31,145 nt of DNA from a virus, in the IMG/VR virus record IMGVR_UViG_3300009605_000074, positions 1-31,145 of that record; one strand, written 5' to 3'. Numbering within the stretch: position 1 is the first letter of the stretch; the number at the start of each line of letters is the position of its first letter. Position numbers and translations under genes: made by a program. Below are positions 373-11,979 of this stretch, in pieces. Under the pieces are notes generated by a model. That model was given only the letters and a program-made list of their open reading frames with translations, was not told the origin of the DNA and searched no databases.

Positions 373-530
373 TATGCTCTCCTTCTTTTTTTAGCTGTTT
401 TAGCTGAACGCTTAAAATTAGCAGCTGTCGGTGCTCCTTTACTTCCAGGCTTTCTCATCTTTTCTCCACTACCTGCTTTTATTCTTTTACGTTTTTTATG
501 TATGTTTGCGTATAATCCTGGTTTTGCCAT
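372..530 (-). CDS. Small, strongly basic conserved phage protein (52 aa)
   Basis: This is a complete small frame: MAKPGLYANIHKKRKRIKAG, then an SGEKMRKPGSKGAPTAANF stretch and a Lys/Arg-rich tail. I recognise the start (PGLYANIHxKRxRI, GSGEKMRKPGSKGAPT) as a small protein that recurs in marine and other tailed phages near tail or head genes; no function is established to my knowledge. The high Lys/Arg content suggests contact with DNA or with acidic virion surfaces, which is inference. Stop and start codons overlap both neighbours (TAATG with the tail fibre; the start at 530 meets the stop of the next gene), so it sits in a tightly coupled cluster. Confidence 0.75.
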   Translation of the reverse strand: MAKPGLYANIHKKRKRIKAGSGEKMRKPGSKGAPTAANFKRSAKTAKKRRRA

Positions 531-820
531 TATGCACTCCTCTTTTTATGTTTATTTGCAAAGTTACGTGCAGCTGCAACACTGCCAAATCCCCATTTTT
601 TAAGGGCTAATGCCTTACGTGTAGGGTTACCTTTACTATCTTTCATAGGTCCTTTCATTCCTGCAAATCTAGCTGCAAAGCTAACTCTTCTACCACTTGT
701 GCCTTTATTTAGTGGTGCTTTAAGATTGCCTTTAGCTGAAGCTCTACCTTTAGCGTTTAATCCGCCAGTAGGACTTTGCCCTTCTTTACGTGTCCATGCA
801 GGTGTCTTTTTTCCGCCCAT
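530..820 (-). CDS. DUF6321-like basic phage protein (96 aa)
   Basis: The N-terminus (KKTPAWTRKEGQSPTGGLNAKGRAS) matches my memory of the DUF6321 family, small basic proteins common in marine phages: a K-T-P-A-W start, then G-Q-x-P-x-G-G-L-N-A-K-G-R. A second part (GMKGPMKDSKGNPTRKALAL, then a Lys-rich end) looks like a helix-turn-helix-free basic tail. No signal peptide, membrane segment or catalytic motif is visible. It lies between two small virion-type genes with overlapping codons, so a virion or packaging role is likely but unproven. The family assignment is from memory and not from a search. Confidence 0.7.
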   Translation of the reverse strand: MGGKKTPAWTRKEGQSPTGGLNAKGRASAKGNLKAPLNKGTSGRRVSFAARFAGMKGPMKDSKGNPTRKALALKKWGFGSVAAARNFANKHKKRSA

Positions 821-3854: not shown

Positions 3855-4370
3855 CTAGTTGTTATTTTGTAGTCTTTTAACAGTAGTCTGTTTTTTGTAT
3901 CTATCTTCTAAGAATTTGAAATATTCGTTATCATCACCATATGGAGCTGGATTCGTTTCCTCTAACAGATTACTATTATTTATTGCAACCTTGGAACTTA
4001 CATCCGCTTCACCTTTTGGAGAAACCTTTGTGCCTTCTTCTGGTTGTTCTTCTTTTTTCTCTACTTTTTTCACAGTAGTGTTAAAGAGTTGCTGTGCTTG
4101 AGCAAACCTATCTTCTACAGGGATATCATCCGGTGTAGCTATAAGTAATGCATTAAACACATCCTCCTCTTCTTTGGATAATCCATCTATGGCTTTTTCG
4201 TGTAAACGTGATGCTTTAACCATTGTAGATGTATAATTCATTTGCTGTTCTGGAGTTAAATTGTTTGCGTCCAATCCAGCAGGTAACATAGATGTAGCGG
4301 CATCCTTTGGGTTTATTTTAACCCTGGTATCTTCACTACCTTGTTCCGGTGTTTTGACTTCTTCTGACAT
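3855..4370 (-). CDS. Scaffolding protein
   Basis: A 171-residue acidic, low-complexity, helix-prone protein (MSEEVKTPEQGSEDTRVKIN...) lies between portal and major capsid genes, the standard place for a capsid scaffold. The middle (LTPEQQMNYTSTMVKASRLH, then GLSKEEEDVFNALLI) is helical, and the end (FKFLEDRYKKQTTVKRLQNN) is basic, as in scaffolds that bind the capsid by a positively charged C-terminus. Its start lies inside the 3' end of the portal gene (35 bases of overlap). Assignment rests on position and composition because scaffolds diverge beyond recognition. A head-maturation protease is unlikely: no Ser/His motif is evident. Confidence 0.7.
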   Translation of the reverse strand: MSEEVKTPEQGSEDTRVKINPKDAATSMLPAGLDANNLTPEQQMNYTSTMVKASRLHEKAIDGLSKEEEDVFNALLIATPDDIPVEDRFAQAQQLFNTTVKKVEKKEEQPEEGTKVSPKGEADVSSKVAINNSNLLEETNPAPYGDDNEYFKFLEDRYKKQTTVKRLQNNN

Positions 4371-6129
4371 TTGCTAGTACCTCCTGCAATTGTTCTTCCT
4401 CACTACCTTGCCCTTCCATGTCTGGTATTCCCATTCCTGGCATCTGACTTAAATCAGCCATACCTGGTTCTGGTCCTGGAGGAGCTTGTTCGGGTGCTGT
4501 ACCCGGAGTTGGTTGAGGTTGTTGGTTGACGTTTTGTATCTTCTCCATATTCAGTAAATCTTCAGGAGATTCATCGAAGCTCTCAAAAATTCTCTGAACA
4601 AATTTTGCCGGGTCAATTGCCTGTGCAACTTCCGGCATGTTTCCAATAACATTAACAATTTGCATCAATTTGTTAAAGTTACTCATCTTCATAACTTTCC
4701 CTGATATGCCTCGGACACGGATACGGGCATCTTTAATCAACTGCATTCGTTCATTAAAACTCATAGAAAGTAAATGTAATACTGACGAATCCGTTTCATC
4801 TTCTGTGAACATCGGTGCGTGAGCATCATCATCCATGTACATAAGTTCTGTATGTAGTAGCAATTCTAATGACGGCTCTATAATACTTCGTTCTATTTCA
4901 GATGCTATATCTGTAAAGAAACTTGAAGTCTCTTGCGTTTTAGTTGCTACTTCAGAAGCAGTAGGTCTACCCTTAGACGTAGGTGCTCCCTGGAAGAACT
5001 CATTTTGGAAAGACCTATTTTGAATAAGTCTATCTATTGTGAATAAAAGGTTTACAGCATTTGGGTTTAAGGAATTGTTATACACCTGATTGATTGTGTT
5101 TGGGGCTGAAACCGGATACATACGTCCCGGAACTACAGAGCCAAACAGATGGGCTTTACCTGACTCGATATTGCTAGTTACAACTTCATACACGCCCAGT
5201 GTAGATATTGTAAATGCATCGAGCAGAAGATTCATACTTTCGACATATGAACTTAACAGGCTTCTTAGTTTTGTAATATAACCCCTGCCATAACGACCTT
5301 GTAAAACTTTCATTGGGAATCCCATACAATAAGGGAAGTTCCCATTTGGTAATGTATTTTTTCCGTAATAGACAACATGTTTTTTGTTTACTATTACATA
5401 GTGTACGTTTGTATCTAGTATTCTTCCCTGTTCGTCAGAGATAAATTTACTATATACATAGTCTAGTTTAACATCTGTAACATATGCTTCGTCACTTCCT
5501 TGAGCTTTGTTAACAGATTCTTGTATTATTGATTTTGTTTTGTTCCAATTATTTACTTTTGATAAAACTTGGTACTCAGCAACTGAACATGTTTTCGATT
5601 CAATAATATAATTTTCACCGTTAGGGTCAATCATTATGTGAAACGGACTTACAGGTTCTATGTTAACTCTACCTATAACTGATTCTTGTGATTCAATATC
5701 CCCAGTCTTTTCATTATACTGTGGGTAGCTTTCTTCTTCATATGTATATTTAATTTTAGTAATATACGGAGATGTTAGTAGTGCCATTTTAAGTGCATCT
5801 CCAAATACTAACGGAAATCTATTATGTATTAATGATTGTTCTAATAGTTTATTCAATCCTGCTTGTACTTTTTTATCTGTATGTTCTACAGTAAAGTATT
5901 TATTATCTGTAGACATTAATATTCTTACAAAGAAGTTAGACATACGGACTACTAGGTTGTCTACTATTGGGTCTTTGATTTTAGTTTGCCAATCTATTTT
6001 GTTTTGAAAGTTATATTCATCCATATAGAATCGCATATTTTCTTTCCAATCAGCCGTAGCACTTTGAAACTCAGGCGATGCTTGAGCTACTAAATGTGCA
6101 TGGAACTTAATAATGTTTTTTTCGTTCAA
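4336..6129 (-). CDS. Portal protein
   Basis: This 597-residue protein follows the terminase gene and precedes scaffold and capsid genes. Visible portal features are an N-terminal helical part (WKENMRFYMDEYNFQNKIDW), a clip/stem region and a long helical crown (ASEVATKTQETSSFFTDIAS ... IERSIIEPSLELLLHTELMY). It ends in a Pro/Gln/Gly/Glu-rich disordered tail containing PTPGTAPEQ. The dodecameric portal forms the DNA channel at one capsid vertex. The start overlaps the terminase stop (ATGA-type). The palindromic repeat at 4490-4506 lies in the tail and encodes PGTAPE. Length fits portals of short-tailed phages. Confidence 0.85.
   Translation of the reverse strand: MNEKNIIKFHAHLVAQASPEFQSATADWKENMRFYMDEYNFQNKIDWQTKIKDPIVDNLVVRMSNFFVRILMSTDNKYFTVEHTDKKVQAGLNKLLEQSLIHNRFPLVFGDALKMALLTSPYITKIKYTYEEESYPQYNEKTGDIESQESVIGRVNIEPVSPFHIMIDPNGENYIIESKTCSVAEYQVLSKVNNWNKTKSIIQESVNKAQGSDEAYVTDVKLDYVYSKFISDEQGRILDTNVHYVIVNKKHVVYYGKNTLPNGNFPYCMGFPMKVLQGRYGRGYITKLRSLLSSYVESMNLLLDAFTISTLGVYEVVTSNIESGKAHLFGSVVPGRMYPVSAPNTINQVYNNSLNPNAVNLLFTIDRLIQNRSFQNEFFQGAPTSKGRPTASEVATKTQETSSFFTDIASEIERSIIEPSLELLLHTELMYMDDDAHAPMFTEDETDSSVLHLLSMSFNERMQLIKDARIRVRGISGKVMKMSNFNKLMQIVNVIGNMPEVAQAIDPAKFVQRIFESFDESPEDLLNMEKIQNVNQQPQPTPGTAPEQAPPGPEPGMADLSQMPGMGIPDMEGQGSEEEQLQEVLANVRRSQNTGTR
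4490..4506 (-). repeat. Palindromic repeat copy (in portal gene)
   Basis: On the minus strand the arms are CCGGGT / ACCCGA with the 5-base loop ACAGC. The codons read P-G-T-A-P-E within the disordered C-terminal tail of the portal protein. Same family as the other TCGGGT-N5-ACCCGA copies; the loop starts with A in the sense direction. Confidence 0.65.
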
Positions 6130-7646
6130 TTAAATATCCTCTCTCTGGTAGGCGTATCAAAGTTATCCGTATAATATTTAGGTTCCTCTACAGGTAACTC
6201 TTGGTCGTTTACTAATTTTTTGGATATGTAAAACAAACCTAGTTTAAACGCATCCGAAACATGTTCAAAGTATTTATCTCGTCTAGGTACTCCAGCATCA
6301 TCTCTAGTATATGCAGACAACGCTTGTATTAAGATGCCGCAATGTTTAGAATCTAATTTAATACTAGGTATTCCCGAGTTAAATTCTTTTAATTCTTCGT
6401 TAGTTAAAACTACACTTGTATCTCGTTTTACATATACCACGTCCGTTTGTAACCCCTTTCGTTTAAATATCATCGCACTTGTTTCCGGTGATACATCATA
6501 CTTCCTATTCGCATCGTGTGGTAGTAAATCCATTGTAGCCTGTACTTCAGGCATTATCTCTTTTTCATACGCAACTACTTCATCAATAAAGTCAGTTAAC
6601 TGTATGTTTTTTCCTAATCTAGAATACAATATATTTTTATGTCCATGTTTAGTTATTTGAAAAGCAACACAAGCTGGGCGAGTATACCCTAAATCCCAAG
6701 CTCTCCATACTGTCCTTAGTGGGTCATACTGTTCAACTAAATCATCGAACACATGTTGCTGACAAAAGTCTGGATAAACAATCTGACCAGTCGGTTGTAG
6801 TTGGAACTTACCGCCCCCACTAAATCTCCAGTGCATTGCACTTTCAGTAAATCTTTTCTTGTATCTTTCTATCTCTTCTTTATCTAATGACAAGTTATCA
6901 TATACGTCAATAAAATGAAACGAAGTATCTTTGTCTTCTTTGTTCTTTCCGTATAGGTCTTGTGCTATGTAGTTGCTAGTTGCGTCCTCAACAATAAAAC
7001 TCATAATCATTTTCCCGGACTTTCTTAACAGTCTAGCAAGAATTTCATCATGCATTACGTTTGACGGACACTCATCAAACCAACAGAAATCAATACCAGA
7101 AGCTTGTAGGTTCTGTGTTTTCATTTCAGCAGATTTGAATTCAAGTAATGTGCCATCCCAAAATTTAACAAAGTCAATACATCTATTCTTACCCCATGCT
7201 ACTTTACCGCCACGTTTTTCTATTGACTCAATGCTCGGCAATAATCCAATACTGTTTGGAGTATCAGTAGAGAACAGGTGAACTTGACTAGAGGTTCTTT
7301 GTATATCAAATGACGGGCTAAATGCCCAGATAATTCTGTCTCCATATTTAGGTTTAGCTATCTCGTGGTTTGGATGCCAACCAATTACATTGTACGCAGT
7401 AACAGCCGCTGAACAATATGACTTACCAGAACTATTATTACCATGCACATAAACACTGAAATTGTTATCATCCACAATAGGCTGTTGTGCAGGATACGGC
7501 TTAAAGAAAAACAAACTTCCATACCAGTATAATAACTCTGCTTTAACTTTCTTGTCAAAATTTGCAAATTCTTCCGGGGTCATATTGTGTATCTTATGCC
7601 ACAACGCTAACATCTTTTTATCTTTGTACCACCAGTCTCTTATCAT
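6126..7646 (-). CDS. terL: Terminase large subunit (packaging ATPase-nuclease)
   Basis: The 506-residue protein has a Walker A-type loop GNNSSGKS at about residues 69-76 and Walker B followed by the catalytic acid in GIDFCWFDECPS (D191, E192). A C-terminal RNase H-like nuclease domain opens with RAWDLGYTRPACVAF (D about 318) and has a later acidic site near MDLLPHDA. These are the ATPase motor and headful/cos nuclease of tailed phages, which pump and cut DNA at the portal. It is directly upstream of the portal gene. The small-subunit candidate is about 1.2 kb upstream, with eight small genes between, which is a wider gap than usual. Confidence 0.95.
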   Translation of the reverse strand: MIRDWWYKDKKMLALWHKIHNMTPEEFANFDKKVKAELLYWYGSLFFFKPYPAQQPIVDDNNFSVYVHGNNSSGKSYCSAAVTAYNVIGWHPNHEIAKPKYGDRIIWAFSPSFDIQRTSSQVHLFSTDTPNSIGLLPSIESIEKRGGKVAWGKNRCIDFVKFWDGTLLEFKSAEMKTQNLQASGIDFCWFDECPSNVMHDEILARLLRKSGKMIMSFIVEDATSNYIAQDLYGKNKEDKDTSFHFIDVYDNLSLDKEEIERYKKRFTESAMHWRFSGGGKFQLQPTGQIVYPDFCQQHVFDDLVEQYDPLRTVWRAWDLGYTRPACVAFQITKHGHKNILYSRLGKNIQLTDFIDEVVAYEKEIMPEVQATMDLLPHDANRKYDVSPETSAMIFKRKGLQTDVVYVKRDTSVVLTNEELKEFNSGIPSIKLDSKHCGILIQALSAYTRDDAGVPRRDKYFEHVSDAFKLGLFYISKKLVNDQELPVEEPKYYTDNFDTPTRERIFN

Positions 7647-8333: not shown

Positions 8334-8650
8334 TACGTAGTGCTTGATTCCCTATATACTATGGCTGTATCATTAGCTCCGATAGTTACGGAGTTCCATC
8401 TACCATATATTGTAGTACCTTCTGGTACTTCTACAGTAGATAAGCTATCCCATACATCAGTATCTGTTGAAACTGCGGTTACTGTACCCGAGGATGTGTT
8501 ATCTGCAATAACTTCTGTACCTACCAATACTGTAATAGCTACATAGATATGTGAGTTAACAGTAGCATTAGCTACTAGGTCATAACCCCCAGCCCCTGAT
8601 ATATTATTAATTGCTTGTTGTGTTGTAGTGAGTGGATGTGGTGTACCCAT
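8333..8650 (-). CDS. Small Thr/Val-rich virion-type protein (105 aa)
   Basis: A beta-prone protein (HIYVAITVLVGTEVIADNTS, then DSLSTVEVPEGTTIYGRWNS) with no enzyme motif, Cys or membrane span. The pattern of a short beta domain with EVPEGTTIYGRWxxVTI recalls small structural proteins encoded near head genes in several phages. Its start overlaps the stop of the 42-residue basic gene (TAATG). A palindromic repeat copy at 8476-8491 encodes SGTVTA in a predicted loop. Role unknown; decoration or fibre-associated protein is inference. Confidence 0.5.
   Translation of the reverse strand: MGTPHPLTTTQQAINNISGAGGYDLVANATVNSHIYVAITVLVGTEVIADNTSSGTVTAVSTDTDVWDSLSTVEVPEGTTIYGRWNSVTIGANDTAIVYRESSTT
8476..8491 (-). 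repeat. Palindromic repeat copy (in 105-aa gene)
   Basis: Minus-strand reading TCGGGT-ACAGT-AACCG; one arm base is mismatched (G opposite A). The codons are S-G-T-V-T. The loop ACAGT is identical to the copies at 18574 and 23737 when each is read in the sense direction. Confidence 0.55.
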
Positions 8651-8778
8651 TATGCTCTACCCCTTTTCATTGGTCTTTTTGGTTTTGCTTTTAGCCTGTC
8701 CTTTGCTAACATTGGCGGCTTTTTCTTCTTTGGCGGTCTCCCTTTTGTCGACCCGTATGTTCCTTTTCCGTATGGCAT
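8650..8778 (-). CDS. Small basic conserved phage protein (42 aa)
   Basis: The start chosen is MPYGKGTYGSTKGRPPKKKK at 8778, directly behind an excellent TAAGGAGG site 6 bases upstream. The MPYGxGTYGSxxGRPPKKK opening is one I recognise from small phage proteins; the rest is Lys/Arg/Pro-rich. Longer upstream starts in this frame have no ribosome site. The stop overlaps the next start (TAATG). About 120 bases of it overlap the 3' end of another frame (8657-8905). Probably nucleic-acid- or capsid-associated; function unknown. Confidence 0.65.
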   Translation of the reverse strand: MPYGKGTYGSTKGRPPKKKKPPMLAKDRLKAKPKRPMKRGRA

Positions 8779-8905
8779 CTTTGCCCTCCTTATAATTATC
8801 TGGATGGGGTGCAATCCATGACGGAATGTATCTACCCATCGGTGCATTTAGTTCTGCAATAAAGTCTTGTGCTAATTTTTGTATATTACTGGATTTTTTC
8901 GCCAT
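8657..8905 (-). CDS. Unrecognised small protein overlapping its neighbour (82 aa)
   Basis: The N-terminal half (MAKKSSNIQKLAQDFIAELN, then GRYIPSWIAPHPDNYKEGKD) is the only coding explanation for 8779-8885 and looks like real protein. The C-terminal half is a Lys-rich, low-complexity stretch read from the same bases as the 42-residue basic protein in another frame. The start overlaps the end of the terminase small-subunit candidate by 20 bases and has a GGAAG site. Either both frames are used, or the ribosome terminates here and restarts at 8778. I do not recognise the family. Confidence 0.5.
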   Translation of the reverse strand: MAKKSSNIQKLAQDFIAELNAPMGRYIPSWIAPHPDNYKEGKDAIRKRNIRVDKRETAKEEKAANVSKGQAKSKTKKTNEKG

Positions 8906-9371
8906 ATTCTTCCCACGCTTCGTCCTGTAATGTAGTTATAGCATTTTCTATTGCTACTGTTTGTGTATCTTGAGTTTGTATTGCAAGAGAAGCACGGAGC
9001 TGGTCCTTTAATACAACTAGTTTTAATTTATAATAGTTTAATACGTTCTTCTCGTCATCATTATCTTGGCATTTTCTAATTTTTGCGTTGATATCTTTTA
9101 ATGTTGACTCATATCTGTCAAAGATAGTAGATGCAAACTCTCTATCCTTAAATGATTTAACAGAATTGTCTACTTTATCCATAAATATCTTATATGTATC
9201 AGTAGGTTTTACATTTTCTAGTATATTCTTTACTGTTTTGTGGTCTATGTTTAATTCTTTAGCAGTTGCCCGGTATGACCAGCCCTTACTGTAGCTTAAT
9301 TCTAGAAATTTCCATATCTTTTTGTCATACTCTTGTGTTTCGGGGAATAGTTTACTTAATGTTTGATTCAT
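8886..9371 (-). CDS. Terminase small subunit candidate (HTH DNA-binding, 161 aa)
   Basis: The 161-residue protein has a clear helix-turn-helix at about residues 30-50 (YSKGWSYRATAKELNIDHKT, then VKNILENV), followed by long charged helices (FASTIFDRYESTLKDINAKI...) that could oligomerise. An N-terminal HTH plus helical oligomerisation domain is the usual plan of small terminases, which recognise the packaging site and load the large subunit. It is upstream of terL in the same operon. The HTH also resembles sigma region 4, and the gene just upstream resembles sigma region 2, so a transcription role is a real alternative. Confidence 0.55.
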   Translation of the reverse strand: MNQTLSKLFPETQEYDKKIWKFLELSYSKGWSYRATAKELNIDHKTVKNILENVKPTDTYKIFMDKVDNSVKSFKDREFASTIFDRYESTLKDINAKIRKCQDNDDEKNVLNYYKLKLVVLKDQLRASLAIQTQDTQTVAIENAITTLQDEAWEEYGEKIQ

Positions 9372-9618
9372 TCGTTGCCTCCAGTTCGTCTAACTTGGTT
9401 GCTTTGTCGTTCCGCTTACCCTCTCGGTACCTACGTTCCCGATATTTGCCTACATACTTATACAGTATCTTCATATATTCTTCAGGCGGTGTAATATTTT
9501 CAACAATATGGACACAAGCATCGTGTAATATATCTTCACAGTCGTAGTTATCGAAACCATGTCCACTAGCCACGTACCATATTTTGTTTTTTAACACGAG
9601 ATACTCTTTCTCGGTCAT
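9352..9618 (-). CDS. Sigma-70 region-2-like small protein (88 aa)
   Basis: Residues about 25-70 (DNYDCEDILHDACVHIVENI ... YMKILYKYVGKYRERRYREG) follow the sigma region 2 pattern: an acidic D-x-E-D-I/L-h-x-D/E-x-x-h helix, then a helix ending in Y-R-E-R-R-Y-R. Region 4 is absent; the protein stops after 88 residues. It is the first gene after the minus-strand promoter at 9638-9666, has an AAGG-type ribosome site, and its end overlaps the next gene (HTH protein) by 20 bases. It may redirect or inhibit host RNA polymerase for late transcription. The fold call is from pattern only. Confidence 0.5.
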   Translation of the reverse strand: MTEKEYLVLKNKIWYVASGHGFDNYDCEDILHDACVHIVENITPPEEYMKILYKYVGKYRERRYREGKRNDKATKLDELEATNESNIK

Positions 9619-11374: not shown

Positions 11375-11425
11375 ATATTATAGGTTTGAGTTTACCCGTT
11401 GGCGGTTTACTTGTCAATAAAAACT

Positions 11426-11442
11426 TCGGGTATTGAACCCGA
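11426..11442 (+). repeat. Palindromic repeat copy (leader, before RNA module 1)
   Basis: TCGGGT-ATTGA-ACCCGA with perfect 6-bp arms. It lies one base before the 5' arm of RNA module 1; the same arrangement recurs 118 bases later. Confidence 0.85.
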
Positions 11443-11443
11443 G

Positions 11444-11530
11444 TAGCAACTGCGAGGGACGACAAGGAAGTTAGTAGTGTATGACTTGTCCGCCTACATG
11501 GTCGAAGCAGTTCCAACTACCCAGTTGCTA
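11444..11530 (+). ncRNA. Tandem structured RNA module, copy 1 (87 nt)
   Basis: The outer stem is TAGCAACTG (11444-11452) with CAGTTGCTA (11522-11530), 9 Watson-Crick pairs. The inner hairpin is GACAAG (11461-11466) with CTTGTC (11485-11490) and an 18-base loop. GTAGT in that loop is complementary to ACTAC just before the 3' outer arm, which would make a pseudoknot. Copy 2 keeps both stems with compensatory changes. Class unknown. Confidence 0.7.
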
Positions 11531-11542
11531 TCAATTAAGAGT

Positions 11543-11561
11543 CTCGGGTATTACACCCGAG
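11543..11561 (+). repeat. Palindromic repeat copy (leader, before RNA module 2)
   Basis: CTCGGGT-ATTAC-ACCCGAG with perfect 7-bp arms, immediately followed by the 5' arm of RNA module 2. Confidence 0.9.
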
Positions 11562-11648
11562 TAGTGACTGCGAAGTGACACCAAGGTAGTTAGTAGTCGA
11601 CAACTTGGTCGCCTGTATGGTTGAAGTTACCCGACTACCCAGTTACTA
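11562..11648 (+). ncRNA. Tandem structured RNA module, copy 2 (87 nt)
   Basis: The outer stem is TAGTGACTG (11562-11570) with CAGTTACTA (11640-11648). Relative to copy 1, one C-G pair became T-A and one A-T became a G-U. The inner hairpin is ACCAAG (11580-11585) with CTTGGT (11604-11609); two pairs changed on both sides. The 18-base loop keeps GNAGTTAGTAGT, and the 3' side keeps CGCCTNNATGGT and ACTACC. Equal length (87) and a 118-base period mark a duplication under structural constraint. Confidence 0.7.
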
Positions 11649-11666
11649 CTCGGGTATTACACCCGA
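11649..11666 (+). repeat. Palindromic repeat copy (leader, before first early gene)
   Basis: TCGGGT-ATTAC-ACCCGA, perfect arms, identical loop to the copy at 11543. It ends 26 bases before the first early start codon; a GAGGTG ribosome site lies between. Confidence 0.9.
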
Positions 11667-11691
11667 AATTTATACTCTGCGAGGTGAAAAC

Positions 11692-11979
11692 ATGGTTATA
11701 TATTTAACCAAGCAAGGCACTAACAAAACTAGTGTATTTAATACGCTAGAGTTTGTTAATGTTGGCGATTACCTGGAAGCGGTAGACGAGCATTTACAAG
11801 ATGCCCCTGTCGATACCCATAAGCTCATTTTGTTTGCTTATGAGTTAGGTCGTTCCCATGTAGAAGAAGAACAAGATGCGGGTACCACACCCGAACATCC
11901 ACCAACCCCATTTAAGTTTAATAATGGGCAGGTCATTTATAGAGACCCAGTAAGCATAGGGAAGGTGCAAGATGATTGA
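11692..11979 (+). CDS. First early gene, unknown (95 aa)
   Basis: The start is MVIYLTKQGTNKTSVFNTLE at 11692, behind GAGGTG; a longer frame from 11605 would run through RNA module 2 and lacks a ribosome site. The protein is acidic with a helical part (GDYLEAVDEHLQDAPVDTHK, LFAYELGRSHVEEEQD) and a Pro-rich linker containing AGTTPEHPPTP, encoded partly by a palindromic repeat copy. I do not recognise it. Small, acidic, promoter-proximal phage proteins often bind host enzymes; that is context only. Its stop overlaps the next start. Confidence 0.65.
   Translation: MVIYLTKQGTNKTSVFNTLEFVNVGDYLEAVDEHLQDAPVDTHKLILFAYELGRSHVEEEQDAGTTPEHPPTPFKFNNGQVIYRDPVSIGKVQDD
11879..11894 (+). repeat. Palindromic repeat copy (in first early gene)
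   Basis: CGGGT-ACCAC-ACCCG, then A. The codons read A-G-T-T-P-E in a Pro-rich linker. Confidence 0.8.

Follow-up and report, generated by a model that had tools for sequence, protein, structure and literature searches.

Does a small phage protein that resembles region 2 of sigma factors form half of a split sigma factor with the helix-turn-helix (HTH) protein encoded beside it, or does it act on the host RNA polymerase (RNAP) by itself, next to an ordinary small terminase? The question is raised by a virus record of 31,145 bases (IMG/VR IMGVR_UViG_3300009605_000074), which was analysed as a whole and is called the window here. An earlier note on this DNA had put forward both readings for a microprotein of 88 aa and the gene that follows it. 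The microprotein gene (9352-9618, minus strand) is likely the first gene of the late operon, and it overlaps by 20 nt the start of the HTH gene (8886-9371, minus strand), whose 161-aa product would most likely be the small subunit of the terminase. The late operon is anchored by the gene for the large terminase subunit (TerL; 6126-7646, minus strand), which follows downstream in the same direction, and the portal or head-tail connector gene lies at 4336-6129 (minus strand). The order on the minus strand is microprotein, HTH gene, small genes, large terminase, portal, presumed scaffold and presumed major capsid protein, and the plus strand carries replication genes (DnaB-like helicase, primase, DNA polymerase).

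Several further features of the window were recorded. An 82-aa ORF (MAKKSSN..., 8657-8905, minus strand) and a 65-aa ORF (8650-8847, minus strand, containing MPYGKGTYG...) overlap out of frame within positions 8650-8905; their counterparts are separate, non-overlapping genes in several relatives, so this overlapping coding looks acquired in the window's clade. A basic 96-aa protein is encoded near the window end (530-820, minus strand) and just after the HTH gene in several relatives, a difference in gene order between them and the window. The stretch between the divergent gene blocks (11425-11894) contains four copies of a CGGGT...ACCCG hairpin, together with two repeats of 53 nt spaced about 118 nt apart, and gave neither an Rfam nor a tRNA match. 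Among the plus-strand genes there is one for a pyrimidine dimer DNA glycosylase (PF03013, 13949-14461, plus strand).

Relatives were gathered by repeated IMG/VR scans, which yielded 32 loci with the HTH gene. The microprotein ORF was present upstream of the HTH gene in 30 of these loci and overlapped its start by a few nucleotides in 26 of the 30. In the other four (L116-L119) the two genes are apart, with 99-141 nt from the end of the microprotein gene to the HTH gene; in those of the four that were read, the gap contains a separate acidic ORF. The microprotein is absent and the HTH gene present in two loci, L129 and L131, which correspond to the places of L008 and L009, respectively; there the HTH gene is retained at 75-76% identity. 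A microprotein without the HTH gene was never found in the IMG/VR loci, and no fused microprotein-HTH form, which the earlier note had proposed to look for in related phages, occurred among the IMG/VR relatives. The microprotein measures 76-88 aa across the family, and its genes gave dN/dS values of 0.04-0.26 (eight pairs), which shows that the ORF encodes a protein under purifying selection and did not arise by chance. These results indicate that both ORFs, of 88 and 161 aa, are real genes and that the two are separable: the HTH protein does not need the microprotein in the lineage that lacks it, and the microprotein is not essential everywhere. At the sensitivity used, neither protein had a homologue in 50,697 phage records, and the microprotein had none among 84,980 genomes of bacteria and archaea; these searches thus pointed to no isolate or host.

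Two of the records gathered deserve separate mention. The 83.7-kb record IMGVR_UViG_3300030060_002972 (L046 and L047) contains two different late operons of one phage type, one with the microprotein and the other without it, and is probably two phages joined in assembly. At L055, the microprotein (4104-4349) is 61% identical to that of the window over 54 residues and the HTH neighbours are 48% identical, a disparity that suggests mosaic exchange.

The likeness to sigma region 2 was assessed at the level of single sequences and of profiles. The Pfam model PF04542 (Sigma70_r2) matched the window microprotein with 12.6 bits, below the Pfam cut-off of 24 bits; the best E-value among 19 members was 0.035 and none passed the gathering cut-off. 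No Pfam family other than Sigma70_r2 had matches from more than two members. In a profile comparison with hhalign, the 19 microproteins were aligned with 13 region 2 sequences of ECF sigma factors (E. coli rpoE and 12 plasmid-borne ECF genes). This gave a probability of 86-89%, an E-value of 2-5e-6 and a score of 35; 200 column shuffles reached at most 17.8, and the reversed profile scored 11.9. The register was the one expected for region 2, with DCEDILHDALL placed on DAEDVVQETFL. Scores were 35.6 for the clade without the window protein and 23.8 for the window's own clade alone, and the microprotein profile reached 8.4 against region 4 and 8-14 against unrelated proteins of Pseudoalteromonas phage RIO-1. 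A second line of support came from gp19 of this phage, which its annotators call a 'putative sigma factor'. The microprotein profile (A3) matched gp19 and two relatives (three Zobellviridae members) with an E-value of 7.8e-5 and a score of 31, against a null maximum of 17.2, and these three proteins themselves scored 43 against ECF region 2. A sequence search of the PDB with the microprotein and HTH profiles returned chance matches only, and no other region-2 or region-4 candidate was found in the relatives' records searched. With a profile score above all shuffles and the similarity to RIO-1 gp19, the region-2 likeness claimed by the earlier note is real at the profile level, and it remains below the Pfam cut-off.

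The pattern of conserved residues agrees with this alignment. Thirteen positions are invariant in the 19 members (Y6, D26, D29, H32, D33, K54, G57, K58, R60, E61, R63, R65 and R69), so an acidic helix at the region 2.2 position and a basic helix at the region 2.4 position are kept. The D-x-x-Q-E positions of sigma region 2.2 contact the RNAP clamp; the microprotein has an invariant D-x-x-H-D there, with H in place of Q (D29, H32 and D33, within residues 26-34, DCEDILHDA; codons at 9517-9543, minus strand). The basic helix, residues 48-70 (codons at 9409-9477, minus strand), carries a net charge of +7 in the window protein. Between regions 2.2 and 2.4, where the -10 specificity loop of sigma factors lies, the microprotein is shorter than the sigma sequences by about 7 or more residues in the alignments, and its model has a 3-residue loop at this place. 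The aromatic residues of region 2.3 are not strictly conserved. As the earlier note had said, the protein stops where a sigma factor would continue, ending after the region 2.4 equivalent and a short linker, and beyond residue 70 the members differ in both the length and the sequence of their tails. The AlphaFold model (pLDDT 87.8) predicts three helices (3-20, 24-41 and 45-87), with ECF sigma domain 2 among its best matches at scores that do not discriminate: Foldseek placed the ECF factor SigH at rank 1 with an E-value of about 1, SigH, RpoE, SigE, SigR and CnrH recurred in a second look with E-values near 1, and the VIA Z scores, 6.5-7.9, were tied with those of unrelated helical proteins (8.2 for Sld7, about 7 for ribosomal proteins). 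A BFVD fold search gave no clear match, and the putative sigma factor of RIO-1 stood at rank 12. The predicted fold is thus compatible with sigma region 2 and not decisive; it is not the kind of model, devoid of a sigma-2 fold, that the earlier note had named as refuting its reading.

The earlier note had also seen a region-4-like HTH in the overlapping gene. The HTH part scored 28.9 against ECF region 4 (probability 74%), more than any of 150 shuffles; the protein matched HTH_23 and the HTHs of transposase, invertase and Q-like families equally well or better. The HTH itself is real and, judged by these profiles, sigma-r4-like, but the specific tie to region 4 did not hold. The model of the protein (mean pLDDT 74) places the HTH at about residues 27-54 and long helices at 77-157. 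A fold search with this model (pTM 0.44) listed generic helical hairpins and HTHs and no small terminase, an outcome that excludes nothing. Known small-terminase families were likewise missing among its Pfam and PHROGs matches, the best of which was phrog_4779, a transcriptional regulator (E about 1e-4). The HTH gene stands upstream of TerL in all loci checked, and no other small-terminase-like ORF occurs between the two in the window. From position and architecture only, we consider it likely that the HTH protein is the small terminase. RIO-1 gp54, encoded next but one upstream of that phage's own TerL, was examined as a relative of the HTH protein and showed no resemblance to it.

Two promoter-like elements precede the microprotein gene. 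P1 (9697-9726, minus strand) is TTGACA-18-TATAAT, a perfect 12/12 match to the sigma70 consensus. P2 (9638-9667, minus strand), which is closer to the microprotein gene, is a conserved promoter-like element of the form CTTGAC-N8-TYCYNRRCTAT-TTATA. Its layout is like that of a sigma70 promoter, with a spacer of 18-19 nt and a partly dyad-symmetric core. The P2 pattern occurs a single time in the window and once per locus in the 62 loci listed (overlapping copies of the same contigs counted); in those checked, it lies upstream of the microprotein. CTTGAC and CTAT do not vary among thirteen aligned representatives, which were selected partly by the same pattern; an alignment made without this bias shows the same block. 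Simple loss of P2 together with the microprotein was considered and rejected: in L008 and L009, where the microprotein is missing, CTTGAC persists and a drifted copy of the core is still present. This drift suggests, from one lineage, that the P2 core is linked to the presence of the microprotein. In L066, L068 and L055 a CAAACGC...GCGTTTG hairpin lies between P2 and the microprotein start; its arms differ between the three loci yet remain complementary, and it is possibly a 5' leader structure.

Taken together, we put at roughly one half the probability that the microprotein is a stand-alone ligand of the host polymerase clamp derived from sigma region 2. This figure is a judgement, and so are the grades given below to a gp55-like factor and to a split sigma factor. 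At the head of the late operon, P1/P2 would serve as its sigma70-type promoter. Its acidic second helix would bind the beta-prime clamp helices of host RNAP, and its basic C-terminal helix may contact nucleic acid. In phage T4, gp55 makes contact with these clamp helices by means of three acidic residues on the helix of its region 2 (PMC7892883). With neither a -10 specificity loop nor the other sigma domains, the microprotein alone is probably unable to open promoters, and it cannot be a complete sigma factor. Late in infection it might compete with or remodel the host holoenzyme, or act with another factor, and such a role is more likely than that of a half-sigma working with its HTH neighbour. 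The HTH gene would be co-transcribed with it and functionally separate; a region-2 decoy beside an ordinary small terminase, the second reading of the earlier note, would be compatible with this arrangement. Several points weigh against a clamp ligand. The gene lies in the late operon, and a competitor of host sigma is more usually an early gene; the sub-threshold Pfam matches, the Foldseek E-values of about 1, the tied VIA Z values and the loosely kept region-2.3 aromatics count against it as well, as does the absence of the microprotein in one lineage.

What else could the protein be? It might be a promoter-specificity factor built from region 2 that directs RNAP to phage promoters in the style of T4 gp55, helped by a co-factor from phage or host that is not the HTH protein. 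We regard this as unlikely. A sigma protein with region-2 homology does drive basal late transcription in T4 (PMC7892883), the 2.4-like basic helix is invariant, and the marine phage RIO-1 has a fuller sigma-like protein; no T7-type RNAP match was found in 11 records, in a search that had no positive control and proves nothing. The alignment, however, lacks the 7 or more residues of the -10 specificity loop, the microprotein gene's own promoters look sigma70-like, and no gp33-like partner was identified. P2 is moreover unique in the window, where no repeated class of phage-specific promoter was seen. Less likely again, we think, is a pair of more specific proposals taken together. In the first, both proteins would sit in a single RNAP-bound complex, with the packaging recognition protein also serving as a region-4-like subunit and late transcription coupled to DNA packaging; in the second, the microprotein would be a sigma-2-only competitor for the clamp and serve as a host take-over factor. 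To our knowledge, no such phage competitor for the polymerase clamp has been described as a host take-over factor.

The tight linkage to the presumed small-terminase gene, the invariant basic helix and the late-operon position would also suit a region-2 fold exapted for packaging or DNA binding, that is, a small-terminase accessory with no role at RNAP. An acidic helix (D26, D29, H32, D33) that is as invariant as the basic one and lies where sigma factors bind the clamp would hardly be expected of such a protein, and the HTH gene persists without the microprotein; we hold exaptation to be improbable. Chance resemblance of an unrelated three-helix phage protein would account for the sub-threshold Pfam matches and the weak, tied structural scores, but a profile score twice that of the best shuffle, in the expected register, and a match to an independent phage sigma-like family make it very unlikely. 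The first reading of the earlier note, a two-subunit sigma factor in which the microprotein provides region 2 and the HTH protein the region-4 function, fared worst and is the most improbable of all. Two-subunit sigma factors exist, as SigO-RsoA of Bacillus shows (PMC10028694), the genes overlap in 26 loci, the microprotein never occurs without the HTH gene, and the region-4 comparison stands above its shuffles. Against this, the HTH gene survives where the microprotein is absent, the genes are apart in four loci, and relatives show no fused form; other HTH families match as well as region 4, and the long helical C-terminal part and the position before TerL fit a small terminase.

A stand-alone clamp ligand thus remains the preferred reading. 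Phage proteins of 76-88 aa in which the polymerase-gripping helix is kept and the promoter-reading loop is not would offer a tool for asking what region 2 alone does to RNAP. They would also bear on the timing of late genes in phages without an evident polymerase of their own, and the conserved promoter element is a direct target for testing.

Among known systems, domain 2 of ECF sigma factors (E. coli RpoE, M. tuberculosis SigH) shares with the microprotein a region 2.1-2.4 profile and register, and the predicted fold is compatible with its type; the microprotein differs in its shorter N-terminus, shortened -10 loop, lack of domain 4 and H for Q in region 2.2. RIO-1 gp19 aligns with it through an N-terminal segment ending D..D[VI][FL]HD, and both have the unusual HD for QE (VFHD at the same place in gp19), but gp19 is a 221-aa protein of the replication module and the microprotein belongs to the late operon. 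The protein T4 gp55 is, like the microprotein, a phage-encoded region-2 homologue without region 4 and with acidic residues on the region-2 helix. It has in addition an extra helix-loop-helix and a sliding-clamp-binding motif (PMC7892883), whereas the microprotein is smaller, ends after region 2.4 with a tail that is not conserved, does not show the sliding-clamp-binding motif and has no detectable partner. RsoA, of about 9 kDa (PMC10141391), is the sigma-2 part of the two-subunit SigO-RsoA of Bacillus subtilis (PMC10028694); it too is small, consists of region 2 only and lacks region 4 in the same chain. RsoA works with SigO, the rest of the sigma factor, whereas the HTH neighbour of the microprotein is retained without it in two loci and is probably a small terminase. 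Region-2-only sigma proteins such as RsoA and T4 gp55 are thus already known but rare, and the microprotein is a new family of that kind.
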